Positions 26,553 to 59,316 of a stretch of DNA of 64,000 nucleotides are shown here, piece after piece (within the stretch, counting starts at the first letter, position 1; the number at the start of each line of letters is the position of its first letter). Position numbers and translations under genes: made by a program. Origin of the DNA: Cyanobacteria bacterium FACHB-DQ100 (GTDB lineage: Bacteria; Cyanobacteriota; Cyanobacteriia; Leptolyngbyales; Leptolyngbyaceae). The notes under the pieces are model-generated. The model was not told the DNA's origin and made no database searches. It saw nothing but the letters and a program-made list of their open reading frames with translations. The stretch covers positions 62,001 to 126,000 of the forward strand of contig JACJNW010000006.1 of NCBI GenBank assembly GCA_014695195.1, read 5' to 3'.

Positions 26553-27893
26553 ATGAGAAACTTAATTTCGACTTGGGTACAGCGTGGAACTAGGTCTCTG
26601 CGCGGACGGGATGGTACAGCCGCGATCGTTCAAACGCTGGCGGCTCGTGCATTGATCATTGTCGTGAATATTGCAACAGGAACCATTACTGCCCGCATCT
26701 TAGGCCCTGCGGGACGGGGAGAGCAAGCGGCAATGGCGATTTGGCCCCAGTTCTTTGCTTATTCATTGTCGCTTGGATTACCCAGTGCATTGTTATATAC
26801 CTTGAAGCGATATCCTCAAGAGCGATCGCAAACCTTTTCTGCTGCGGTTTTCTTGGGCATGTTTATTAGCGTTTTTAGCGGTGTCATTGGAGTCATCACG
26901 ATTCCGTTTTTGATGCAAAAATATCCATCCGAAGCGATTCACTTGTCCCAAGGACTTATGGTAGCGGTGCCGCTGGTAGTATTTACGGAAGTGCTGCGAT
27001 CGGCAATGGAAGCTAGCGATGAATTTGCGATCGCCAATCAAATTCGCTATCTTCCCCCGCTGAGTACCTTGGCACTGCTGATTGTTTTGGCGGTGACAAA
27101 ACAACTCACGCCCTTCACCGCTGTTCTGTCCTACTGGCTCCCCGGAATCCCAATGCTGGTTTGGATGATTGCCTGTGCGAAGCGATTTTTTACGATTCGC
27201 TTTACGCAGATTCAGCACTCGATTCAGCGATTAGTGCACTATGGTTTTCGGGCGTATGGGATTGATTTGATCAGCGCGTTGGCAGGACAAATTCAGCAAG
27301 TGCTAGCGATTAGTGTCCTGGCTCCTGCCGCAATGGGGCTGTATGCGATCGCGTTTAGTCTGTGTCAATTGCTGTATGTGGTGCAAAGTTCTTTTGTAAC
27401 GGTGCTATTTCCCAAAGCGGCAGCCCGTCCCGTTTCAGAAGTGGTTGAACTGACAAGTAGAGCCGCCAGAATTAGCGGAATGTTGGCGATTTTGATGGCA
27501 ATTTCGATGATGGCTTTGGCTCCAGGTGTGCTGCACTTACTGTACGGAGAGGCTTATCTGGCAGCGATTCCCATCTTTCGGGTGTTAGCGATCGAAACGG
27601 TTCTCGGTGGCACCGCAATCATTCTTTCACAAGCATTCATGGCAACCGATCGGCCGGGAATCGTCACCCTGATTCAAGGCATTGGCTTGATGTTGGGCGC
27701 TCCCTTGATTTTGATCCTCACTCCGATGTTTGGATTGTTAGGAATGGGTTTAGCGCTGCTGGGTTCAACAATGATTCGGCTCGTCTCCGTTTGGATTTGC
27801 TACCCTGTTGTGCTGAAAATGCCGCCACCCGGCTTGTGGTTAACCCACCAAGACCTGAAATTTATACAACAGAAGTTTCTCAGTCGTTTCTAA
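26553..27893 (+). CDS. Polysaccharide-type flippase (MOP/MATE superfamily)
   Basis: A 446-residue membrane protein with about 12 hydrophobic helices and short loops, starting after a basic N-terminus (TWVQRGTRSLRGRDG). The pattern GTITARILGPAGRGEQAAM is the classic first segment of oligosaccharide flippases (Wzx/RfbX class), which move lipid-linked sugars across the inner membrane. No other polysaccharide synthesis genes are adjacent, but the GT2 and GT14 enzymes at 18-20 kb might supply substrates. Its substrate cannot be told from sequence. Confidence 0.85.
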   Translation: MRNLISTWVQRGTRSLRGRDGTAAIVQTLAARALIIVVNIATGTITARILGPAGRGEQAAMAIWPQFFAYSLSLGLPSALLYTLKRYPQERSQTFSAAVFLGMFISVFSGVIGVITIPFLMQKYPSEAIHLSQGLMVAVPLVVFTEVLRSAMEASDEFAIANQIRYLPPLSTLALLIVLAVTKQLTPFTAVLSYWLPGIPMLVWMIACAKRFFTIRFTQIQHSIQRLVHYGFRAYGIDLISALAGQIQQVLAISVLAPAAMGLYAIAFSLCQLLYVVQSSFVTVLFPKAAARPVSEVVELTSRAARISGMLAILMAISMMALAPGVLHLLYGEAYLAAIPIFRVLAIETVLGGTAIILSQAFMATDRPGIVTLIQGIGLMLGAPLILILTPMFGLLGMGLALLGSTMIRLVSVWICYPVVLKMPPPGLWLTHQDLKFIQQKFLSRF

Positions 27894-28005: not shown

Positions 28006-29280
28006 ATGGTGAGTCAGCCCAACCGTTCACAACCGATTAAACGTTCACAGCCGATCGTTCTCACCTCCCATCCTGCTAAGTTCTCGAAGTCGATCGCGAT
28101 TCACTGGGGCGAAGCTGATCCGATTAAACGCGGTGCCATCATCGGAACGCTTACCACCCCGGCTCATCGGAACGTGATCGGGACGCATTCCGGTTCTTAT
28201 GCGGTTTATCGTGCGCTTGCGGTTGCCAGTGGCAAACTCGATGCCAACCATCGCGCTGATCTAACCAATACTGCTCCTGCCGCGCTGCTTCATCCTCATC
28301 CCGCTTGGTCTGATCCAGATAAGATCGTGTCGATCGACCCTTTTGGTGCGATCGTTGGCGAGGTGTATCGCGATTTGTACGATCAGGGGTATGACATCAA
28401 ACCGACGATCGCGATTACCAAAGCCCACATCAATATGCCAGAACTGCAAGACGCAATCGCCAAAGGTCGGTTGCGCGAAGATGGCAAAATTATGAAAAAA
28501 GGCGGCGATTTAGTCGTGACGAAAGCCGCAATCGAGCCGGTGTGGTATCTGCCCGGAATAGCAAAACGGCTTAACGTTGAAGAAGGTCTTCTCCGCCGCA
28601 CGCTATTCGAGCAAACTGGCGGCATGTTCCCCGAACTCGTCACTCGCCCAGATGTCAAAGTGTTTCTGCCTCCGATCGGTGGCATTACCGTTTATATCGT
28701 CGGTGATCCTGAGGCGATCGCTGATCCAAATCGTGCCTTAACGGTGCGCGTTCACGACGAGTGCAACGGTTCAGATGTCTTTGGTTCTGACATTTGCACC
28801 TGTCGTCCCTACCTGGTTCACGGGATTGAAGAGTGTGTACAAACCGCTCAGCAAGGCGGTGCGGGCGTAATCGTCTATCTCCGCAAAGAAGGACGCGCCC
28901 TGGGTGAAGTGACAAAATTTCTCGTTTACAACGCGCGTAAACGTCAAGAGGGCGGCGATCGTGCCGATGCCTACTTCGCCCGAACCGAATGTGTAGCGGG
29001 TGTCCAGGATATGCGTTTCCAGGAACTCATGCCCGATGTGCTGCACTGGTTGGGAATTACTCGCATCGATCGCTTTATTTCTATGAGCGACATGAAACAC
29101 GATGCGGTGACGCGATCGGGAATCGAGATCGTCACGCGAGTTCCGATTCCCGAAGAACTGATTCCGGCTGATGCAATGGTCGAAATCGAGGCGAAAAAAG
29201 CCGCCGGATATTACACCGAAAGCGAAATTCTCACCGAAGAAGCCTTAGCTGAGATTAAAGGACGAGGACTGAGTGACTAA
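28006..29280 (+). CDS. URC1-type GTP cyclohydrolase II-like protein (uracil catabolism)
   Basis: A 424-residue protein. The C-terminal half (about residues 200-375) is a GTP cyclohydrolase II-like domain with three zinc-type Cys in HDECNGSDVFGSDICTCRP and the catalytic-type segment VIVYLRKEGRALGEVTKF. The N-terminal half (about 20-200), with GTHSGSYAVYRALAV and DPFGAIVGEVYRDL, is the extension seen in the yeast uracil-catabolism protein Urc1 and absent from riboflavin-pathway RibA. The next two genes are the Urc4 (DUF1688) and uracil phosphoribosyltransferase homologues, which fixes this as the URC pathway rather than riboflavin synthesis. I start at ATG 28006 (MVSQPNRS) with GAGAGAG upstream. 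The stop overlaps the next gene by 8 bp. Confidence 0.85.
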   Translation: MVSQPNRSQPIKRSQPIVLTSHPAKFSKSIAIHWGEADPIKRGAIIGTLTTPAHRNVIGTHSGSYAVYRALAVASGKLDANHRADLTNTAPAALLHPHPAWSDPDKIVSIDPFGAIVGEVYRDLYDQGYDIKPTIAITKAHINMPELQDAIAKGRLREDGKIMKKGGDLVVTKAAIEPVWYLPGIAKRLNVEEGLLRRTLFEQTGGMFPELVTRPDVKVFLPPIGGITVYIVGDPEAIADPNRALTVRVHDECNGSDVFGSDICTCRPYLVHGIEECVQTAQQGGAGVIVYLRKEGRALGEVTKFLVYNARKRQEGGDRADAYFARTECVAGVQDMRFQELMPDVLHWLGITRIDRFISMSDMKHDAVTRSGIEIVTRVPIPEELIPADAMVEIEAKKAAGYYTESEILTEEALAEIKGRGLSD

Positions 29281-30481
29281 TCTCGTGGACTATTTGCGAT
29301 CGCCCAAAGCTATCCGCGATCGTGCTTCTCAGTTGTTTGAGCTTGCACAGGCGGATAAACTCGCCTACTTTCAGCTAGATCTGACGCAGCTTGATGCAGT
29401 TGCAGACTATGTGATCGCTGTGATGCGTCAGCAATACCCCGATTTGCAGGTTCCATTTCACAGTCGCTGGCGACATTTTGAAGTCGGCAATTTTCCGCGT
29501 GTGCAGCAGCTTGAACAGGCGTTAAAGAACTTATCTCCAGTCGATCAAGCGAAAGCCAAATTCGATCTAGTCGTTCCGAGTGTCTTGCTGGATGCCGGGG
29601 CGGGCGATCGCTGGCAATACCTTGAATCTTCTACGGAACAAACTTGGACAAGATCCGAGGGATTAGCGATCGCCTCATTCGATGCCTTTTGCCAAGGTGC
29701 GTTCTCGACCCAACCCTATCGAACCGATGCCGAGGGGCTCAAGCAGATTACCCCGGAAAAGATTGCCGCTTTTTTCCAGGTGACTCCTGAAAATCCTTTA
29801 GTGGGACTCGAAGGACGATCGCACCTGCTGCGAAAACTGGGACATACGATCGAGCAATTCCCGGATCTCTTTGGTGATTCTCCTCGCCCTGGCAATCTAG
29901 TGGATTATTTGAGGCATCAGACGCATCAAGGCGAGCTTTCGGCTGTGACGGTATTAAATGCGGTTCTGCTCGGTTTCGGTGACATCTGGTCAGGGAGATT
30001 GTCGATCGACGGCACAAATTTAGGCGATGTCTGGCATCATTCCGCCTTATCCGGTGAAGACACAGACCAACTAATCCCGTTTCACAAGCTCTCGCAGTGG
30101 CTCACCTACTCCCTGCTTGAACCCTTGCAGGATCTAGGAATCACAATTACTGATCTTGACCAAATGACCGGACTCCCCGAATATCGCAATGGTGGTTTGT
30201 GCGTTGATCTCGGACTGCTGCAACTGAAAAATCTACAGCTTGCAGAAATTCCGCATTCTCCAGACTCAGAATTGATCGTGGAATGGCGGGCGCTGACCGT
30301 TTGTTTGCTCGATCGCATCGCCGACACCATTCGCACGAAGCTTGATCTCACCTCTGATGCGCTTCCTCTCGTCAAAGTTCTTCAAGGCGGAACCTGGACA
30401 GCCGGACGCAAAATCGCCGCATCGCTCCGGCCCGGTGGAACTCCCCCAATTCAAATTTCTAGCGACGGAACCGTTTTTTAA
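29273..30481 (+). CDS. URC4/DUF1688-family protein (uracil catabolism)
   Basis: A 402-residue protein of the DUF1688 (URC4/urg3) family, recognised by [18 protein letters not shown] at the start, [11 protein letters not shown] and [14 protein letters not shown] in the first third, and [17 protein letters not shown]. In the yeast Lachancea kluyveri Urc4 is required to degrade uracil, acting after its conversion to UMP; its chemistry is not fully established. The start (GTG 29273) lies inside the end of the URC1-like gene and the stop is 2 bp before upp, so all three are translated from one mRNA. No signal peptide or membrane segment. Confidence 0.88.
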
Positions 30482-30483
30482 CT

Positions 30484-31119
30484 ATGGCTGCAAACCTCAC
30501 CCTCATCGAGCATCCTTTGATTCAGCACAAACTCAGTTTGATGCGGCGAGAATCAACCAGTACAGCAAAGTTCCGATCGCTGATGACCGAACTGAGTCTG
30601 TTACTCGCCTATGAAGTCACGCGGGATCTACCCTTGCGCTACGAAACCATTCAAACTCCGATGGCAGAAATGGAGGCTCCAGTTTTAGCCCCAGACAAAA
30701 AGCTCGTTGTTGTATCAATTATGCGTGCCGGGCAAGGCATCCTTGATGGAATCTTGCAGTTGATTCCCTCTGCTAGAGTTGGTCACGTGGGTATTTACCG
30801 GGAACCCAATTCGCTAGTGCCGATCGAATACTATTTCAAAGTCCCGGACGATACTGAAGAGCGCGATATGCTCGTCGTTGATCCGATGATGGCAACGGGT
30901 AATTCTGCGATTGCGGCAGTCGATCGTCTCAAGCAAACGAATCCGCGATCGATTAAGTTCCTCTGTATTCTGGCGGCTCCTGAAGGCATTACTCATTTTC
31001 AAGAGCAGCATCCAGACGTGCCGATCTTTGCAGCCGCGATCGATCAGGGATTAGATGAGCACGGGTATATTATTCCGGGATTAGGAGATGCGGGCGATCG
31101 TTTATTCGGTACAAAGTGA
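30484..31119 (+). CDS. upp: Uracil phosphoribosyltransferase
   Basis: It makes UMP from uracil and PRPP, both as a salvage enzyme and, in the URC pathway, as the first step (yeast URC6). The 211-residue length is standard. Visible motifs are [31 protein letters not shown] (uracil-binding flexible loop region), the PRPP-binding loop [17 protein letters not shown], and the C-terminal [16 protein letters not shown]. It is the last gene of the urc operon, starting 2 bp after the DUF1688 gene. Its 3' end abuts the promoter of tRNA-Cys (TATAAT at 31120-31125). Confidence 0.97.
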
Positions 31120-31141: not shown

Positions 31142-31217
<76 letters not shown>

Positions 31218-31268: not shown

Positions 31269-32489
31269 ATGCCGGATTGTGACAATATTCGGCAGAAAAT
31301 AGCAGGGTGTGATACTCAAAATGGTCACATTTTGGGTTACAAAATGATGGATATTGACAAGTCAATTGCTCGAGTAAATGAACAGTTAAAAGCTTCTAGG
31401 GTAGGAGTATCAATCGAGCGTCGGGGTGGGCGACTCTGGCTAAGAGGAACATTCCCCCCTAAGCCCGAATCCGGCCAAACTAAATCTCATCGACAAAAAA
31501 TTTCTCTAGGAGTTCGTGCTACGCCAGCAGGTTTAGAGCAGGCAAAGAAAAAAGCACGATTACTGGGTGCTCAGTTAGATTCCGAGCAATTTAACTGGGC
31601 ACAATGGTGTGATTCTAGGTCAGAACACAGTGAAGGTCCATTAATTGGAGAGATACTTGAGCGATTTGAAACTGAGTACTGGAACAATCGGGAGCGTAAC
31701 TCCCAATCTGAAACTACTTGGAAGACTGATTACCTCAGAGTTTTTAATAAATTGCCCAAAGATGCTCTCTTAAATTCGGAAATTCTGAAAGAGGTTATCC
31801 TTACCACCCAGCCTAACTCCAGACAACGGAAACGAGTTTTTGAAAAATTGGTTAGTCTTGCTGAATTTGCTGGAATAGAAGTGGCTTTCTCCGAAAAATT
31901 GAAGGGATCCTACTCTCCGAAACACGTTAATCCGCGTTTCTTGCCAACTGATGAGATCATCCAAACGACGAGAGACGCAATCGAGAATGAAGCATGGCGT
32001 TGGGTTTTCAGTGCCATCGCAACGTGGGGATTGCGCCCTCATGAAGTATTCCACCTCGATTTAGCGAAATTTCCAGTAGCTCAGGTGCTTAGCCCAACGA
32101 AAACGGGAGAGCGATTTGCATATCCGTTGTACCCTGAATGGGCAGAAGTTTGGAAACTGGACGACATTAAGTTACCCAAGTTTCAGAAGGAACACAATAA
32201 TGCAAAACTGGGAAACAAAATTTGCAAAGAGTTCAACGAACGTGACATACCCTTCAGGGCTTATGATCTCCGGCACAGTTATGCCCGTCGATGTTTTGAG
32301 TTTTCAATCCCACCAGATTGGGCTGCACATCTGATGGGTCATAGCTTGAAGGTTCATATGGAGACCTACAGAGCTTGGATTGACTGGGAGACTTACCAGA
32401 GGGCGTATGAGGCTTTAATCGCTAGAAGTGATCGACCCCGCCCTCCAAAGATTAACGGTAAGCAGCAGGAATTCCCCGAAGTTCCATGA
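31269..32489 (+). CDS. Tyrosine-type site-specific integrase of the island
   Basis: A 406-residue integrase that would recombine attL and attR to insert or excise the island. The catalytic C-terminal domain (about residues 225-390) shows the first Arg region ATWGLRPHEVFHLD, the H-x-x-R box YDLRHSYARR, the later His in AAHLMGHSLKVH and the nucleophile Tyr in METYRAW. The N-terminal part has an arm-binding region (SIERRGGRLWLRG) and a SAM-like core-binding region. The ATG at 31269 overlaps the edge of the att repeat block; an internal ATG at 31344 (MMDIDKSIA) is also possible. Placement next to the tRNA is typical of tRNA-integrating islands. Its end overlaps the Xis-like gene by 38 bp. Confidence 0.93.
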   Translation: MPDCDNIRQKIAGCDTQNGHILGYKMMDIDKSIARVNEQLKASRVGVSIERRGGRLWLRGTFPPKPESGQTKSHRQKISLGVRATPAGLEQAKKKARLLGAQLDSEQFNWAQWCDSRSEHSEGPLIGEILERFETEYWNNRERNSQSETTWKTDYLRVFNKLPKDALLNSEILKEVILTTQPNSRQRKRVFEKLVSLAEFAGIEVAFSEKLKGSYSPKHVNPRFLPTDEIIQTTRDAIENEAWRWVFSAIATWGLRPHEVFHLDLAKFPVAQVLSPTKTGERFAYPLYPEWAEVWKLDDIKLPKFQKEHNNAKLGNKICKEFNERDIPFRAYDLRHSYARRCFEFSIPPDWAAHLMGHSLKVHMETYRAWIDWETYQRAYEALIARSDRPRPPKINGKQQEFPEVP

Positions 32490-34471: not shown

Positions 34472-37400
34472 ATGGGAATTCACTTGACTCGAGATGCCAT
34501 TCAGAAGGCTAAAGCTCGGTATTCATCCAGATTCGGAACCCATGGTGCGCTTGCAGGAGAATGCGGATTGAGTGAATCCACAGTTCATCGGTTCTTCCAG
34601 GGAAAAGCTGTCAGTAATGAGTCCTTCCAGAGAATCTGTAAAGCTTTAGACCTAGATCCGCGTGAGTTATTCTATGAACTATCAGAGTCTAGAGTTAGAG
34701 GGGAGAATGCTAATGCTGTGCGTGGACAGAGCCCGGATGAGGAGGAAGTATGCAATTTCTCAAATCAAGGAAACGGTGTCCCCTATTGTTGGAAGCGAAC
34801 TGATGATATTGACACGCTTACAACGCTAATCACCCAGCCTTCTACAGCTAGATTAGGCATATTTGGAATGGGTGGCATTGGTAAAACAGTGCTGGCATTA
34901 GCTTTGACACGAGAACCAGAAGTGCAACAAGCCTTCCCCGATGGCATATTTTTGATCTTGTGCGGGCAGGAGCAATCACCCACTTCACTTCAAATGCAGC
35001 TTGTTAGGGCTTTAGGCGGCACTCCTCAACCGTTTGTGAATGACCAAGAGGGCCGAACTTTTCTACGCAAGCAGATCGGGTGTAAGCAGTGCCTAGTCAT
35101 CTTGGACGACGTGTGGCGGCTTGAACAAATTCACGCTTTTGATTCAATTGGCGAAAGCTGCAGGCTTCTAATTGGCGAGAACTGTAAGCTTTTAATCACC
35201 ACTCAAAATCAAGGGCTCCTGACCGCATCTGGTAGTGAGAAGTATGAGCTTGAGTTATTGAATGAGCCGGGCGCACTTGAACTGCTTTCGCTTTGCTCAG
35301 GGCAGGAGGATGCTCAGCAGTTGGAGTCAGCACGAGAAGTGGCTCGGGAATGTGAGGGGTTGCCTCTGGCATTAGCGCTCTGTGGTATGCAGATCCGCGA
35401 TGGCAATTTGTGGGAAGACCTCCGAGATGCCCTGAGAGCATCGGAAATTGAGTGTCTAGATCATGAACTTGGCAGTGTTGCAAAAGTGCTCAAAGTCAGT
35501 GTTGATACTTTGATTAGGAAGAACGCTGAAGATGGGCGGCTTTATCAAATGCTTGCCGTCTTCGCCAAAAGCACTCCAATTCCTGAAGCAGCCATCCTGA
35601 CCTTCTGGATACACAACAGCAAATTAAATAAGCACAGAGCTCGTCTACTCATTACGCGCCTTGCCAATTGGGCGTTATTGACTGTGTCAAGAGAAGATGG
35701 AAAACGATTCGTCACTCTCCATGGGTTACAGCACAACTATTTGTGCAGCAGGTTGGATGACCCGCTAAGCCTTAATGACAAGCTTTTGGAAGCCTACCAG
35801 CAACAATGTCCCACAGACTGGGCTAGGGGTCCAAATGATGGATATTACCTTGAGCATTTAGTACCACATTTATTCAAAAGTGGACGAGACAAGGAAGTCT
35901 ACGAGCTGCTAATCGGCTCATTCAACTGGATGCAAAGAAAGTTTAAGGACTGCCAAGGCGATACTGCCTATGTTGTTGACTTGAATTTGGCAATCAGCAA
36001 ACTTTGTGATCCGCTCACGTCCGATCAGGTGCTTCTTCTAGCTCAGCTTTATACAGCCCGTCAAGTGGTTACTTATCGGGTATGCACGTATAGCGATACT
36101 GATTTGCGAATTCTAGTGCTGCTCAATCGGTATGATGAGGCACTAGCTATTGCCCGTTTAAAGCCCGATGCAGAACAACGATTCAACGGGTTAGTAAGCA
36201 TCTATGACAGCCTAAAAGAGAAGAAACAACTCACTCATACACTTCTTGATGAGATGTGGGAAACGGCTAGAGAGATTGAGTGTCCATACTCACATCAATC
36301 TGCCCAATTGCAACTACAGCAGATTCTCCCTGCAGAAGAGCCATCATCAAACTCTGAAAAAGCTGTTACAACATCCTCTCAAGGTATATCTAGCTCTGTG
36401 CGGCAAAAGCCAACAGAAAAAATCATTAATGAAGATTGGATAGATAGTTCACCAGGCTATTCAGATGAAGAACGTAAGCAATTAAAAGAACATTTCAACT
36501 TATGCAGGGAGGTGAAGAATTTAACTAAAAAAGGGTGTTATGAAACCGTTGAATCGCTCATCGCTCAAGTACCTGATCTCGGTCTCCGAGCCTCACTCTC
36601 CAAAGAATATGCAACGGCTCTCATTCAAGCTCAATGCTTTAGTAAAGCTGAAACTACGATCGAGAAAACTTTGACTTTTGAGCAACAAACTTCTGCCTTC
36701 AAAGACTTAGTATTAGCTTTAGCTCAAAGTGGTCGATTGGAAGAAGCAAATTGTTTATTTGCTCGTGCCAAGTCAGTTGCAGAGCAGTCCCCAAAAGACC
36801 TGAAGGAGGTATTAGAAGAACATGACGACCACTTAGAAAGAACATTAATAACAGTAATAGAAGGACTAGCCACTATAGGTCATGTTGAGGAAGCAGGAGG
36901 GATAGCCAGAAGAACTAATCATCCGTATTGGCAAGCGGTAATTTTAACTTCGCTATTATCTAGCCAGGTTCGGCTTGGCGGCCATAAGGCAGGCACCAAG
37001 CTACTTGGTGAAATAAAAGAAATGGCTAATCAGGTTAGTTCCTGTGAGGTTCGCTCTAGAGTTTTGCAAAAGGCGTTTCAGCAAACAGCAGAATTAAATT
37101 TCCAAGTCGAAGCAAATTCATTTCTAGTTGACCTATTAGATTGTATAGAAGAAATTGAGGATAGATTTACCCGTGCTGGTGAAAAATCGAATTTGGTGAA
37201 GATACTTGCTCAGCTACAAAGAACTATAGAAGCCAAAGAATTATTGCGACATATTGAACATCCCTTTTGGTACACAATTGGACTGACTCATCTGGCCGAG
37301 GCTGACCTCCAACAAGCAGAGGCAATTTTTGCTGAAGCTTTTGCGTCCTTGAAAGGTACTACTAATATATGGTCCGCAGGCTATCAGATTGGGCAATCGC

Positions 37401-37825
37401 AGAAAAGGGTTTTAACGAAGCATCTTTTAATATACGGTGTTGCGAAACTCTTCATGCTTGATCAGGCATTGAGAAAGGTTTCAATCAATAATTTTTTAAT
37501 AAGTTATCTTGCTAAAGATGTAGTTCCTAAAACGTTATTGATGGCTGAGATACATCTTATGGCTGACTGGAGTAAAGAAACTCCTCCTACGGAAGTACGT
37601 AGGAATATTGCGAGCGAGCGAGCGCGGGCTCAATTTTTTCATGAAGCTTTTGAATCATTGGGATTTCAAACTTTAGAAGATTTCTTCATTGTTTTAGCGT
37701 TGGCTGGATGGATGCCGAGTTTTGAGAAGACTGAGCGAGGGTTATCATTGAGGATTTTGCGAGAAGTAGCACGCATCGCAGGATGGATTTCCCCAGAGTG
37801 GATGGAAATTTCTCGATTATTCTAA
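34472..37825 (+). CDS. XRE-NB-ARC STAND ATPase with long helical-repeat C-terminus
   Basis: A 1117-residue protein. An N-terminal helix-turn-helix region (about residues 22-72) includes LAGECGLSESTVHRFFQG. The NB-ARC ATPase follows, with Walker A GMGGIGKT (132-139), Walker B LVILDDVW (208-215), and GLPLAL (about 296-301). A winged-helix-like segment extends to about 430 with HGLQHNYL in the place of the MHD motif. The rest, to 1117, is helical with TPR-like pairs (EANCLFARAKSVAEQ, QAEAIFAEAFASL), suitable for ligand sensing. STAND proteins are signal-triggered switches; bacterial ones include antiphage systems, and its place on a mobile island fits that role, but no effector nuclease, protease or TIR domain is seen. 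Residues 226-241 hold an 8-residue tandem duplication. HIP1 sites are lacking. Confidence 0.88.
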   Translation: MGIHLTRDAIQKAKARYSSRFGTHGALAGECGLSESTVHRFFQGKAVSNESFQRICKALDLDPRELFYELSESRVRGENANAVRGQSPDEEEVCNFSNQGNGVPYCWKRTDDIDTLTTLITQPSTARLGIFGMGGIGKTVLALALTREPEVQQAFPDGIFLILCGQEQSPTSLQMQLVRALGGTPQPFVNDQEGRTFLRKQIGCKQCLVILDDVWRLEQIHAFDSIGESCRLLIGENCKLLITTQNQGLLTASGSEKYELELLNEPGALELLSLCSGQEDAQQLESAREVARECEGLPLALALCGMQIRDGNLWEDLRDALRASEIECLDHELGSVAKVLKVSVDTLIRKNAEDGRLYQMLAVFAKSTPIPEAAILTFWIHNSKLNKHRARLLITRLANWALLTVSREDGKRFVTLHGLQHNYLCSRLDDPLSLNDKLLEAYQQQCPTDWARGPNDGYYLEHLVPHLFKSGRDKEVYELLIGSFNWMQRKFKDCQGDTAYVVDLNLAISKLCDPLTSDQVLLLAQLYTARQVVTYRVCTYSDTDLRILVLLNRYDEALAIARLKPDAEQRFNGLVSIYDSLKEKKQLTHTLLDEMWETAREIECPYSHQSAQLQLQQILPAEEPSSNSEKAVTTSSQGISSSVRQKPTEKIINEDWIDSSPGYSDEERKQLKEHFNLCREVKNLTKKGCYETVESLIAQVPDLGLRASLSKEYATALIQAQCFSKAETTIEKTLTFEQQTSAFKDLVLALAQSGRLEEANCLFARAKSVAEQSPKDLKEVLEEHDDHLERTLITVIEGLATIGHVEEAGGIARRTNHPYWQAVILTSLLSSQVRLGGHKAGTKLLGEIKEMANQVSSCEVRSRVLQKAFQQTAELNFQVEANSFLVDLLDCIEEIEDRFTRAGEKSNLVKILAQLQRTIEAKELLRHIEHPFWYTIGLTHLAEADLQQAEAIFAEAFASLKGTTNIWSAGYQIGQSQKRVLTKHLLIYGVAKLFMLDQALRKVSINNFLISYLAKDVVPKTLLMAEIHLMADWSKETPPTEVRRNIASERARAQFFHEAFESLGFQTLEDFFIVLALAGWMPSFEKTERGLSLRILREVARIAGWISPEWMEISRLF

Positions 37826-39080: not shown

Positions 39081-39905
39081 ATGGGAATTTTGGATCTTAG
39101 AAATATAACTAATTTGGCTGATTTCTATCATCGATATCAGGACTATGTAAAATCCCAGTTTGAAGAGAAGAAGGCAAATTCCATTATTGCTAAAACAAAC
39201 ACCAGTCTCGTTCGTTATGTCTTACCTGAATATGGATTTCTGCTGAAGCTAGATGGCAATTTGTCACCGGCTGAAATGCTTGAGGGATTGAAATTTATGG
39301 AGCAAGTCCCGATCTCTCAGGTTGTTCATCTCCTAGAGACGCAAGAACGGGTTTTCAATCGATTTGGAGAGCGTGTTTCTCCCGCTATTCGCAGGGCTTA
39401 CCGTTCAACAACAAAAATAATGCTGGATTGGGGGAAGTTGCAGGACTGGTGGAAACAATCGGTTGAAACGTCTTCCCATGGCAGAACCCCGACTATGCTG
39501 ATTTTCAAGAAACGAGTGGAGCACTGGCATAAGTTGAAACCTGAAGAACTTTCGCCGAGCTTGAGCCAGCAGCTCAGTCATTTCTCGCTCTACTGTACAA
39601 CTTTGCGGCAGCCTTGCCTCAGTGAAGGTTCGTGCGTCCGGTACCACAGAGAGATTCTTGGAGTTCTGGGTTGGATGCATCGAATTAAGGGGATTGCTGT
39701 CGCGAACCTCAGCCTCGCTGATTTGGTACCCGTTGCTGCTGTCTATGACCAGGGTGCGGCAGAACGAGTTGCGACGCTTGCCCAAGAGTATCTCGACTGG
39801 ATGCGAGCCAATCTGGGGGGCAAAGAAGCGACTTTGAAATTTGCTCTGCAAGCTTTCTTTTACTTAGCGGAATACATTCAAGATGAGTACACCAAGAACG
39901 CCTGA
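39081..39905 (+). CDS. Recombinase-associated helical protein (first of a coupled pair)
   Basis: A 274-residue protein whose stop lies 23 bp inside the start of the 495-residue recombinase gene, so the two are translationally coupled. It resembles the all-helical core-binding part of tyrosine recombinases (YHRYQDYVKSQFEEKK at the start, LGVLGWMHRIKGI and YLDWMRANLGGKEATLKF towards the end), but I see no catalytic Arg-His-Arg-Tyr set. It may be an accessory subunit or a split N-terminal half. No other family is recognised. Confidence 0.65.
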   Translation: MGILDLRNITNLADFYHRYQDYVKSQFEEKKANSIIAKTNTSLVRYVLPEYGFLLKLDGNLSPAEMLEGLKFMEQVPISQVVHLLETQERVFNRFGERVSPAIRRAYRSTTKIMLDWGKLQDWWKQSVETSSHGRTPTMLIFKKRVEHWHKLKPEELSPSLSQQLSHFSLYCTTLRQPCLSEGSCVRYHREILGVLGWMHRIKGIAVANLSLADLVPVAAVYDQGAAERVATLAQEYLDWMRANLGGKEATLKFALQAFFYLAEYIQDEYTKNA

Positions 39906-41370
39906 AAAAGATAGGCCAACGAACCTAGCGCTCGAAGCTTTGGTGAAGTTGCGAAACCAACTGAAGTTAGTCCAATATCCAAAGACCACTAATCGTCATC
40001 GGCAGGAAGCTTATGCGCTTGATGCAGAAGACCTGTCTACTGAACTTTGTGCAGAGCTCGATTATCTGCTCGATGCCATGGTCAACCCTCATTCTGACAT
40101 CAATTGCTTCAAGACTCAGGTCAGCCTTGAAACAGCGATGCGACGAATGGCAATGCTTTATCGATTGCTTGGGGTAGTGAAGAAGGTGAAACAGATCCCT
40201 GCTGAGGTGTTAAGCCTAGATCATCTAGTACACTTCGCTCCCCATAAAACCGCTTTGCGTCGTGCTAGAAACTATGACGAAGTCCGGTTGATTGAGCAGG
40301 CCTCTCTGGAAGCAGCAGAGCAAACTCAGGCAACCCTGAGAACAGTATTGAATTGGTTGCGGAAGGAGCGCCAAATTCATCCTTCAACGGAGAAAGGGGT
40401 TGTTGAGGTGTTCCTGGTTGTTGCTAAAATTCAGCACTTCAAGGAAACCGATTCCCTGAAAGCAGACAATTATGGCGATATTCCCGTCATTCTGATGCTG
40501 CGACAAGAACTCAAAGAAGCAAAGGAGCGGGCTAAGCATGCACCTCCTGCTGCGGATGAGTCTCTGAAATGGTTAGACTGGCCTGAATTTCTCGCTTGTG
40601 TGCATCACTTAGAGCGAGAATGCCAACCTACCTACAGCTATGGCTCGAAGCGGACGCCCACGGCAGTTGCGCGCAGTGTTCAGCGGTATTTGTTATTCGC
40701 TTTGTTGGCCTATATGCCCCCAGATCGGCAGCGGACGCTGCGAGAGTTAGAGGTTGGCAAGACGCTGGTCAAGGGTCTCCTCAATCATAATGGGGTCTTT
40801 GAGGCTAAAGATGACGGAAAATGGTACATCCATTTGATGAAGACGAACTACAAAACCGGGAAAACCTACGGCGAACAGTGGTTGATGGTGCCGGACATTC
40901 TCTATTCCTATCTGGAGGCGTGGTTGGCGCAATGGCGTGCCCTGTTTTCCCCCAACCATAACTTTGTCTTCACGCAGGAAAACGGTAAGCCGTACCGCAA
41001 AGCCTCGGATCTGTCCAACCTCATTCGGCGCGCGACTTACCGCTTGGCTGGTAAACTCACTACCTCCCACTTGATTCGGCACATGTTGATTACTTACTTG
41101 AAGCGTCATGGCGCTTCCGATGAAGTCATGCGAAGCTTGGCTGACGCCATGCACCACAGCACGAAGATACAGGGGGAGATTTACGATCGTCGTCATCAAC
41201 TTGAAAAGGTCGCTCCGGCTCAGGACTTGGTCTTGAAGTTAGCGATGGGAGAACCGGTCTCGACCCTGATAGGGGTACGATCTCTCAGCGTTGAAGAACT
41301 GGTGCAGCAGATTCGGCAGCTATCTCCTGGAGAGCGTCAACGACTTCTGACTCTGGTGAGGCAATCCTAG
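39883..41370 (+). CDS. Tyrosine-recombinase-like protein (second of the pair)
   Basis: A 495-residue protein whose C-terminal third has the tyrosine recombinase signature. The first Arg is probably in PPDRQRTLRELEVG (about 290), and the box TSHLIRHMLITYL (about 405) supplies H-x-x-R. MHHSTKIQGEIYDRR carries the last His and the nucleophile Tyr, all in the proper order. The N-terminal 200 residues are helical, charged and of unknown function. It may mobilise this sub-region independently of the tRNA integrase. The composition is richer in GC than the STAND gene nearby. Confidence 0.78.
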   Translation: MSTPRTPEKDRPTNLALEALVKLRNQLKLVQYPKTTNRHRQEAYALDAEDLSTELCAELDYLLDAMVNPHSDINCFKTQVSLETAMRRMAMLYRLLGVVKKVKQIPAEVLSLDHLVHFAPHKTALRRARNYDEVRLIEQASLEAAEQTQATLRTVLNWLRKERQIHPSTEKGVVEVFLVVAKIQHFKETDSLKADNYGDIPVILMLRQELKEAKERAKHAPPAADESLKWLDWPEFLACVHHLERECQPTYSYGSKRTPTAVARSVQRYLLFALLAYMPPDRQRTLRELEVGKTLVKGLLNHNGVFEAKDDGKWYIHLMKTNYKTGKTYGEQWLMVPDILYSYLEAWLAQWRALFSPNHNFVFTQENGKPYRKASDLSNLIRRATYRLAGKLTTSHLIRHMLITYLKRHGASDEVMRSLADAMHHSTKIQGEIYDRRHQLEKVAPAQDLVLKLAMGEPVSTLIGVRSLSVEELVQQIRQLSPGERQRLLTLVRQS

Positions 41371-41891
41371 TTGGAAGAAGTCTGATCATTCACCTTGGTG
41401 CAGCAGAGGGAATGAGTAATGAAAGAGATCGATAGACCTTTTGCGTGATAGTAGAGGAATTGCCTCGAAACTTATACCTCACAGTAGTATGAAAATTTTT
41501 CGCATTAAGCAATTATTATTGCAACCAGCGATCTCTCTGAAAAACATCCTCTGGTAAATATCCTAAATCAGGCAACCGAAATTAAATCTTCTGTTCATAG
41601 GTGATCTGCAGAGTAAGGGCTTCGCGGCATCTGACCGCTTGGTTTCTTTGTTGATCATGATAGTGTTCTAAACCCTGGGCCTTCTCTTTTAAAGTCTGCC
41701 TTTGAAAGCATGACCTAGAAAGCCATCTGCTTGACTAGAACACAGCATAATTTTCCTCAACTTTCAGGAATTACAAAAGCGTTCGACATGAGCTACCAAA
41801 TGCTGCCCGAGACTGACAAATAGGGTTATCTGCATTTCGCTTTTCTACGACTTTGAGATTACAGGATTTTTTTGGTACTAAGCATATGCCA
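41371..41891. other. Intergenic region, no assigned gene
   Basis: About 520 bp with no recognisable gene. On the minus strand an open stretch (about 41760 down to 41595) reads FQRQTLKEKAQGLEHYH and then AVRCREALTLQIT, but it has no start codon and I cannot name it; it might be the end of a decayed gene. Confidence 0.4.
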
Positions 41892-41909
41892 AAAAGGGTA
41901 TACCCTTTT
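41892..41909. promoter_or_regulatory. 18-bp perfect palindrome before the serine recombinase
   Basis: AAAAGGGTATACCCTTTT is identical to its reverse complement. It ends 24 bp before the recombinase ATG. It could be a crossover/res half-site set or an operator for autoregulation. Confidence 0.55.
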
Positions 41910-41933
41910 CGTCATATCCTCACGATTACAGTA

Positions 41934-42527
41934 ATGAACCCTACAATCGCTTGCTACGTTCGCGTCTCATCCCGTCGCCAAAGAACTGACAGTCAGCGTG
42001 CTGAAATCGAACAATGGCTAGCTCGTCATGGGTTCGATCCAGGATCTGTTCTGTGGTTTGAGGATAAGGAAACAGGTAAAACATTGAAGCGAGAAGCGTT
42101 TGAACAACTGCAAGCCGCAATTTTTGAGGGGCGAGTTAAAACGGTGATCGTCTGGAAGCTCGATCGCATTTCTCGGTGCCTAAAAGAGGGCATCGCTACC
42201 TTGGCAAATTGGTGTGAGCGAGAAGTGCGGGTGGTTTCCGTGACTCAGCAGATTGACTTGAGTGGTGCCGTCGGTAGCATGATTGCCAGTGTCATGTTTG
42301 GGTTGGCTGAAATTGAACTAGAGTACCGTCGAGAGCGGCAGGTCGCCGGAATTAAAGTTGCCAAAGAACGAGGTGTCTACAAAGGACGCCAAAAGGGAAC
42401 AACGAAGGCAAAGCCTCAACGGGCAAGAGAACTCCGCGATCGTGGCTTGACGGCTGCGGAAATTGCTAACGCTCTCAACACGAGTGAACGCACTGTATTC
42501 CGTTATCTCAACCTCAGCTTAAGTTGA
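41934..42527 (+). CDS. Serine recombinase (resolvase/invertase family)
   Basis: A 197-residue recombinase. The N-terminal catalytic domain (about residues 1-135) has ACYVRVSSRRQRTDSQ with the nucleophile Ser, EDKETGKTLKREAF, and the conserved VWKLDRISRCLKEG. The long E helix follows with FGLAEIELEYRRERQ. The C-terminal helix-turn-helix (about 155-195) reads LRDRGLTAAEIANALN and ERTVFRYLN. This is the size of small resolvases and invertases; no transposase is adjacent. I start at ATG 41934 (MNPTIACYVRV) because the longer frame would run through the palindrome. Confidence 0.92.
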   Translation: MNPTIACYVRVSSRRQRTDSQRAEIEQWLARHGFDPGSVLWFEDKETGKTLKREAFEQLQAAIFEGRVKTVIVWKLDRISRCLKEGIATLANWCEREVRVVSVTQQIDLSGAVGSMIASVMFGLAEIELEYRRERQVAGIKVAKERGVYKGRQKGTTKAKPQRARELRDRGLTAAEIANALNTSERTVFRYLNLSLS

Positions 42528-57722: not shown

Positions 57723-58700
57723 ACCTGAGTTCGGGTTAAGCCGGAAACAGGAGATTGCGGTCGAGGGCAATCGATGGCTTCTTTGGCTGATGGCAGTAGG
57801 CAATCAATCCGCCCAGGATGTTCACAAAGCAATTGACTGGAGAGCGATGCCGTGAATGCTCGATCTGCGAGATGTTCTTCAACTGGTCGATGATCGTTTC
57901 GATAATGGAGCGGTGACGCAACATCAACCGGTCATTCAACAGCATCAATCGCTGTTTCATGTTGCGCTTGAGTTTGGTGATGAGCTGAATGCCTGCACTT
58001 TTGAGCAGTTGTTTGGCGAGTTTTTGCGAGACATAGCCTTTGTCGGCGAACACCTTGCCGAATAACTGCTGTAACAACTTCGGGACGGGAGCACGGTCAT
58101 CAGTGTTGCCCGGAGTCAGCACGATGTTGAGCAACTCACCTCGGTCATTCACCACCAGATGCAGTTTGAAGCCAAAGAACCAATCGAGCGAGGTTTTGCC
58201 GCGTGCAGCAACGTTCTCGAACACCTGGTTGCGCTCAATGCGACGGTTGTGGCAGACACTCAATGAGGTAGAGTCCATGAAGCTGATGCCGCTGCACGAC
58301 CCGAAACACGAGCGCAAGTAGGCGCACATCGGCACGAGCGTCCCTGGAATCCATTCGATGAAGCGCTGGTAGCTGACTAAGCCTGGAAAGTCAGATGCCC
58401 ACTCGGTCTGCACTTTCTCTTGATAATAGGCTTTGAAGTTGCGATAGCACGACTGATGAAACACTATCAGAATCGTCATAATCTCGCTCAAGCTCAGCCT
58501 GCGAGGGCGATTGCGAAGCTGAAGTCCACAGCCTAGAAGCTGCTGCTTCCAGTGCGGCTCAAAGGTGTTGCAGAAATCGTCGACGGAGCAAAACAGTTCT
58601 TCTAGACTAAGCATGAGGGCAAACTGGGCTTGAGATTTTAGCATTTTCAGCCTATCGGGTTTGCCCCTTTCTTGTCTCAATCCTTATCCCGAACTCAGGT
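57723..58700. mobile_element. IS982-family insertion sequence, intact, with 7-bp target duplication
   Basis: The 978-bp element begins ACCTGAGTTCGGG and ends with the inverse CCCGAACTCAGGT; the ends match over about 18 bp with one mismatch. TAAGTTA is duplicated on both sides (57716-57722 and 58701-58707). It encodes one full-length transposase. Confidence 0.88.
57736..58644 (-). CDS. IS982-family DDE transposase
   Basis: A 302-residue transposase from ATG 58644 ([12 protein letters not shown]); a TTG at 58680 would add 12 residues. The DDE catalytic residues are in [22 protein letters not shown] and [10 protein letters not shown]. The N-terminal part ([25 protein letters not shown]) is the standard IS982 segment. 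No frameshift or stop is seen, so the element should be active. It fills nearly the whole IS. Confidence 0.95.
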
Positions 58701-59264: not shown

Positions 59265-59316
59265 AGAGGTCTGCAAAACCTCCACCCCCAGTTCGAATCT
59301 GGGTGCCGCCTTCAAG
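59265..59316 (+). repeat. attR: 52-bp copy of the tRNA-Cys 3' end
   Basis: Identical to 31166-31217. The upstream half of the tRNA is missing, so this is not a functional tRNA. A diverged terminator hairpin (CTCTAGAAC/GTTCTAGAG, 59326-59346) and AAGTTAAGTTGTGCC follow, matching the attL side and its right flank. Confidence 0.92.

Follow-up and report, generated by a model that had tools for sequence, protein, structure and literature searches.

The stretch of DNA analysed here (the window) comprises 64,000 nucleotides of Cyanobacteria bacterium FACHB-DQ100 (contig JACJNW010000006.1, positions 62,001 to 126,000) and carries three genes, URC1, URC4 and upp, whose products belong to the enzyme families of the uracil catabolism (URC) pathway. 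The pathway and its bacterial trio of genes are already known, and this operon is an additional bacterial example. The three genes are arranged as follows:

28006-29280, + strand: URC1, a guanosine triphosphate (GTP) cyclohydrolase-II-like protein, predicted uridine triphosphate (UTP) cyclohydrolase (NF005536/PRK07198, Pfam domains, PDB matches)
29273-30481, + strand: URC4, a DUF1688 protein, Qng1-like in its modelled fold and predicted to act as an N-glycosidase on ribosylurea(-5'-phosphate) (PF07958, AlphaFold2 model)
30484-31119, + strand: upp, a URC-type uracil phosphoribosyltransferase (UPRT), in the role of yeast URC6 and fission yeast urg2 (TIGR01091)

The genes follow each other in the order URC1, URC4, upp as one tight unit, with an overlap of 8 bases between URC1 and URC4 (29273-29280) and a gap of 2 bases between URC4 and upp (30482-30483). 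An earlier note on this DNA had described them as one overlapping unit, which holds for the tight arrangement, and also as fused, which is incorrect, since three separate reading frames are present without any gene fusion. URC1 starts with ATG at 28006, a start codon conserved in close relatives, and URC4 with GTG at 29273. A promoter scan near the operon returned no sites against 3.4 expected, and the four terminator-like sites found there correspond to chance level (4.0 expected). All three genes are under strong purifying selection, with ratios of non-synonymous to synonymous substitution rates (dN/dS) of 0.02-0.14 in 14 of 15 gene comparisons of the trio with five relatives, values that are rough because several dS exceed 1, and saturation in the fifteenth.

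Family assignment and co-inheritance

URC1 attains 755.9 bits against the NCBIfam model PRK07198 (NF005536; cut-off 403) and contains the Pfam domains GTP_CH_N and GTP_cyclohydro2. The closest solved structures are PDB 7eev and 7ej3 (604 bits, residues 15-422), which are named 'GTP cyclohydrolase II'. An excerpt of PMC12507026 refers, in connection with the URC pathway, to a 2021 paper on 'UTP cyclohydrolase', and we infer that the two structures belong to that paper. Thus, the chemistry of the pathway, which the earlier note had called not fully defined, is less open than it was held to be.

The upp product (267.6 bits to TIGR01091, cut-off 208.35) is distinct from the housekeeping UPRT of the same genome, a second full-length copy encoded on a separate contig (C44) and 42% identical to it. 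The window enzyme shares 62-76% identity with seven of the eight URC-type copies compared and 49% with the eighth (locus L106), and identity between the URC-type and housekeeping types amounts to 36-44%. In a tree of 96 sequences, a single branch with a support of 100 splits 91 URC-type sequences (the higher-scoring copies from 26 genomes and 65 operon-linked copies, the window included) from five housekeeping sequences, although this is a quick tree, for which the tool warned of long branches and an odd letter make-up among the housekeeping rows.

Among 386 cyanobacterial genomes, DUF1688 was found in 33, and URC1 over its cut-off in 30, all of them within the 33. These 30 are referred to as URC genomes, although a few of them carry a split or partial gene (G215, G360). 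In the three genomes with DUF1688 and no intact URC1 (G039, G334 and G354), URC1 is broken or missing and URC4 is damaged. URC1 and URC4 co-occur even where they lie far apart or on different contigs, as in at least eight of the 30 genomes (for example, G011 and G177). At least one full-length UPRT is present in each of 66 genomes, namely the 33 with DUF1688 and 33 URC-less ones (taken from the top of the listing of the window's class; there are 353 URC-less genomes in total, and some of the 33 share a genus). Of the 30 URC genomes, 26 encode two full-length UPRTs, as does none of the three with damaged copies or of the 33 URC-less genomes, so that the second enzyme is inherited together with URC1 and URC4.

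The gene order is likewise conserved. URC1, URC4 and UPRT stand in this order on one strand in 54 of 80 URC4 loci (45 among the 68 from cyanobacteria and 9 among the remaining 12), and URC1 falls within the locus in 58 of the 68 and 11 of the 12, several of the 80 loci being truncated by contig ends. Units of two or three genes that contain the URC1-URC4 pair are found in several phyla. The trio is already present in public annotation ('URC4/urg3 family protein') on plasmids of Azospirillum, Pseudoroseomonas and Gordonia, with families and gene order identical to those of the window; URC4 identity to these copies is 45-52%, and their neighbours differ, with a BMP-type ATP-binding cassette (ABC) transporter directly downstream of upp in Azospirillum.

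Broken or fragmentary remnants of URC1 and/or URC4 were observed in eight genomes (G039, G354, G334, G278, G320, G167, G352 and G125), with both genes damaged in G039 and G354. As judged from these remnants, the pathway seems to have been lost repeatedly in cyanobacteria.

Predicted fold and activity of URC4

URC4 matches PF07958 (DUF1688) with 526.1 bits (cut-off 25). An AlphaFold2 model was built from 64 sequences, comprising the window protein and those from 63 of the 80 loci after exclusion by hand of near copies and cut-off genes, and reached a predicted local distance difference test (pLDDT) score of 93.5 and a predicted template modelling (pTM) score of 0.92. When this model was compared with the PDB by Foldseek, ranks 1 to 11 were all occupied by Qng1/DUF2419 structures (E 1e-9 to 4e-8), and rank 12 was noise (E 0.12). 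VIA-align gave Z 27.1 with a root-mean-square deviation of 2.8 over 309 residues for 7uk3 and Z 26.9 for human Qng1 (7ugk), and the next matches, helix-hairpin-helix DNA glycosylases, did not exceed Z 11, a level at which the tool warns of frequent chance matches among helical proteins. Identity between URC4 and Qng1 in the structural alignment is about 16-20%. Against Pfam Q_salvage the window protein scores 17.3 of the 25 bits needed, with sub-threshold matches in 5 of 10 URC4 proteins and none over the cut-off, and sequence searches of the PDB with single URC4 sequences or the 64-sequence profile returned no match. URC4 is hence placed outside the Qng1 family proper.

Qng1 is a queuosine-5'-monophosphate N-glycosylase (7u07, 7u91, 7uk3) that shares with URC4 the predicted fold, a lysine and collinear motifs. 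The entry 7ulc is titled as the mutant D231N and has an asparagine at the aspartate of the motif LTAFAD, which fixes the position of D231, and K199 is the lysine of FYKRAQ, 32 residues before D231. For the alignment, a Qng1 gene piece from a search of the phylum of the L102 host was aligned to the PDB sequences; the Qng1 pieces used end before the region of D298 and W302, which are reported active-site residues of Qng1 (excerpt of PMC11592518). In the profile alignment of URC4 with Qng1, which agrees with the predicted fold, K272 falls on K199 and E303 on D231 in collinear order, and both URC4 residues are invariant in 64 of 64 aligned sequences. The lysine at the K199 position is therefore kept, whereas the aspartate at the D231 position is not found in URC4, where a glutamate takes its place throughout.

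Due to the predicted Qng1-like fold, the retained lysine and the replacement of the aspartate by an invariant glutamate, URC4 is most likely to act in the manner of a nucleotide N-glycosidase, and the model suggests the cleavage of ribosylurea(-5'-phosphate) to urea and ribose(-5-phosphate), presumably a much smaller substrate than that of Qng1. This prediction matches the proposal made for yeast, in which URC4 converts ribosylurea to urea, as given in an excerpt of PMC7530994. Among the 12 non-cyanobacterial genomes that carry URC4, none has Qng1 over the cut-off, and four weak matches coincide by their coordinates with the URC4 gene itself; in the phylum of the L102 host, 1 of 195 genomes has a Qng1 match. 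We consider it fairly probable, with some way short of certainty, that DUF1688 and DUF2419 are two branches of a superfamily of small-molecule N-ribosidases derived from helix-hairpin-helix DNA glycosylases, one releasing queuine from queuosine-5'-phosphate and the other urea from ribosylurea-5'-phosphate, with Lys+Glu in place of Lys+Asp, and that the pathway belongs to the nitrogen-control regulon of heterocystous cyanobacteria. A limited literature search found no paper linking DUF1688 to Qng1/DUF2419, although one may exist elsewhere.

Proposed pathway, its regulation and alternative explanations

In the proposed route, UPRT would convert uracil and phosphoribosyl pyrophosphate to uridine monophosphate, which general kinases would raise to UTP. 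URC1 would then hydrolyse the uracil ring of UTP with the release of pyrophosphate and the C4-C5-C6 fragment, probably as malonate semialdehyde, in a ring opening analogous to the release of formate from GTP by its relative GTP cyclohydrolase II, and would leave urea joined to ribose-5-phosphate. URC4 would cut the N-glycosidic bond of this ribosylurea phosphate by means of Lys272 and Glu303 in a Qng1-type pocket, yielding urea and ribose-5-phosphate, and urease would finally free ammonia from the urea. The gene for urease alpha is located on a contig other than that of the window (C39:217318), and hence the operon, which the earlier note had called complete, holds the core of the pathway rather than the whole of it.

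As to the three-carbon product, at least 3 of the 12 non-cyanobacterial loci (L102, L104 and L106) have, as the gene next to URC1 on its upstream side, an aldehyde dehydrogenase over the cut-off of TIGR01722 (coenzyme A-acylating methylmalonate-semialdehyde dehydrogenase), the upstream genes of the other nine having been identified in part. This location fits a release of malonate semialdehyde by URC1 and suggests that compound as the product in some bacterial relatives. A uridine kinase also neighbours the URC genes in L106. The alternative Rut pathway was rejected for this genome, as the best match to RutA reaches 67.4 bits against a cut-off of 498.3.

The proposed route resembles that of Lachancea kluyveri, where, according to an excerpt of PMC7530994, URC1 and URC6 generate ribosylurea and 3-hydroxypropionate, and URC4 acts on the ribosylurea. 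The L. kluyveri system (URC1, URC4 and URC6, with URC3/URC5 urea amidolyase) employs the same three enzyme families as the window trio and differs in that the latter forms a compact operon, in that urea is presumably broken down by urease, and in that some bacterial relatives suggest an oxidation of malonate semialdehyde instead of a reduction. In fission yeast, urg1-urg3-urg2 are likewise clustered genes for a cyclohydrolase-II-like protein, a DUF1688 protein and a UPRT, although under eukaryotic promoters; uracil is an inducer of the trio, and nitrogen starvation a further one of urg1 (excerpt of PMC2174524).

Because of the family memberships, the gene order shared across phyla, the near-perfect co-occurrence of URC1 and URC4, the URC-type UPRT paralogue and the presence of a separate RibBA, the unit is assigned to the URC pathway, and we hold it at roughly 85% probable that it encodes the three-enzyme core with the steps as proposed. 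The earlier note had named the trio as the core of an L. kluyveri-type pathway, and the same lines of evidence back that identification.

Several observations weigh against this assignment. The dehydrogenase neighbour was seen outside cyanobacteria only, among loci where not every neighbour has been identified, and four of the 30 URC genomes (G062, G195, G203 and G336) contain a single full-length UPRT. Urease is not a marker of the pathway, being present in 32 of the 33 DUF1688 genomes and in 30 of the 33 without, and was dropped as uninformative. For URC4, the profile alignment is weak when taken alone (hhalign probabilities of 2.6% and 20.6%, P 0.018 and 0.0011, with two Qng1 sequences), the catalytic role of K199 and D231 in Qng1 is read from the mutants named in PDB titles, and with glutamate in place of aspartate the chemistry could differ. 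The exact nitrogen-control-type site described below does not occur within 400 bases upstream of URC1 in either the window or L037-L042. Finally, the only match of the window genome to NCS2 permeases (PF00860) is a partial one of 30.8 bits (cut-off 27), which lies within a frame of 752 residues and, although nominally above the threshold, is taken for another transporter, in a search that covered no other transporter families.

The regulatory and uptake data bear on the purpose of the pathway. A GTAN8TAC site of the NtcA nitrogen-control type was found between -155 and -100 of URC1 in 22 of the 70 upstream regions. The background, 24 of 627, was taken from the other genes in these loci because shuffles keep single-base content only. 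TAN3T follows 18-27 bases after the site in 13 of the 22, the near-palindrome GTATTCTGTAATAC is common to 19 non-redundant sites, and the mean frequency of the top base is 0.78 in the eight free columns versus 0.52 in the flanks. The names borne by 21 of the 22 loci are those of Nostocales. When one mismatch is allowed, the site is present in L038, L040, L041 and L042, and in none of the window, L037 and L039. Near-full-length NCS2 permeases are encoded by 14 of 30 genomes with URC and by 6 of 33 without it (Fisher P 0.029; since related genomes are not independent, this and the other Fisher P values of the analysis overstate the evidence), and this family is thus associated with the pathway, not required for it. 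In view of the weak and partial match in the window genome, this strain may be unable to take up external uracil through such a permease, and growth on it may fail even with a working pathway. The operon was previously proposed as a simple test system, and this is fair, with the reservation that the strain may not grow when uracil is supplied, because of transport.

Such data leave room for a purpose other than growth on external uracil, namely that the same chemistry trims internal uracil or UTP from RNA turnover, for pool control or for the recycling of ribose and nitrogen. This explanation, which overlaps the catabolic one and differs from it in purpose only, gains from the weak NCS2 match and the uneven distribution of that family, as well as from the lack of the NtcA-type site in the clade of the window. 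However, the site precedes URC1 in Nostocales, and BMP-type ABC systems, which import nucleosides, adjoin the URC genes in several relatives: 17 of the 80 loci have BPD_transp_2 permeases nearby and 10 have a Bmp binding-protein cluster, where clusters are named from representatives and single linkage can mix families. We regard an exclusively internal role as a serious yet rather unlikely alternative to uracil catabolism as proposed.

A role of URC1 and URC4 in the synthesis of a specialised metabolite from UTP, in place of a breakdown product, is very improbable. Relatives of cyclohydrolase II do get recruited to other pathways, but the recurrence of the URC1-URC4 pair across several phyla argues against such a role here, as do the largest identified neighbour clusters, which consist of a TPR protein (29 of 80 loci), transport and signalling genes without tailoring enzymes, many smaller clusters being unidentified. 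Least probable of all is that URC1 is the GTP cyclohydrolase II of the riboflavin pathway within a flavin or salvage unit: although Pfam, NCBIfam and public annotation all label the family GTP cyclohydrolase II, and the three cysteines and the D-x-R motif, with their presumed roles in the cyclohydrolase II core, are retained and align with the genome's own RibBA, URC1 is far under the cut-offs of the RibA models (57.4 versus 205.85 bits for TIGR00505, 63.4 versus 148 for PRK00393) and far over that of PRK07198, a full RibBA is encoded on another contig (248.7 bits to GTP_cyclohydro2, compared to 62.7 for URC1), DUF1688 accompanies URC1 in each of the 30 cyanobacterial genomes that have the latter, and the counterpart trio of fission yeast responds to uracil. 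A riboflavin role was therefore rejected, and with it the objection, raised in the earlier note, that the first gene might be a true RibA.

Neighbouring genes and wider meaning

In the window, URC1 is preceded by a gene for a polysaccharide-flippase-like protein (26553-27893), and upp is directly followed by a tRNA-Cys gene (31142-31212); Rfam matches in the whole window are limited to two tRNAs. At other loci, the small TPR protein gene (L087, 6008-6583) stands near URC1, in almost every case upstream of it and on the other strand. Among the relatives, those of Microcoleus/Tychonema contain a gene encoding an adenylate/guanylate cyclase domain between URC1 and URC4 (L059, 6862-7974, the copy on which the domain was tested; the cluster also includes L046, L047 and L063). 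A ureidoglycolate-lyase-like gene, named from one representative (L058, 15568-16083), is found up to 9 kb downstream of URC4 in 12 of the 80 loci and suggests a wider nitrogen-compound region in those cyanobacteria.

A perfect direct repeat of 52 bases occurs at 31166-31217, in the 3' part of the tRNA-Cys gene, and again 28.1 kb downstream at 59265-59316. From their placement and the genes between them, the repeats look like the borders of an integrative element, within which the following were found together with several two-component kinases and response regulators:

31269-32489 and 39883-41370: phage-integrase matches, sub-threshold
41853-42527: resolvase
57736-58680: transposase

The putative element also encodes a 1117-residue protein (34472-37825) with helix-turn-helix, NB-ARC and APAF1_C-like matches, which had no match in PADLOC and is possibly a defence or regulatory protein.

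With respect to the family, DUF1688 spans fungi to several bacterial phyla and takes part in a route that may allow microbes to reclaim the nitrogen of RNA bases. The co-inherited second UPRT lets annotators separate the UPRT of uracil breakdown from that of salvage, which now bear identical names. The added value of this analysis lies in a testable mechanism for DUF1688, that of an N-glycosidase with named residues, and the superfamily relationship with DUF2419, if true, would give a mechanism to a URC enzyme still labelled as of 'unknown function'.

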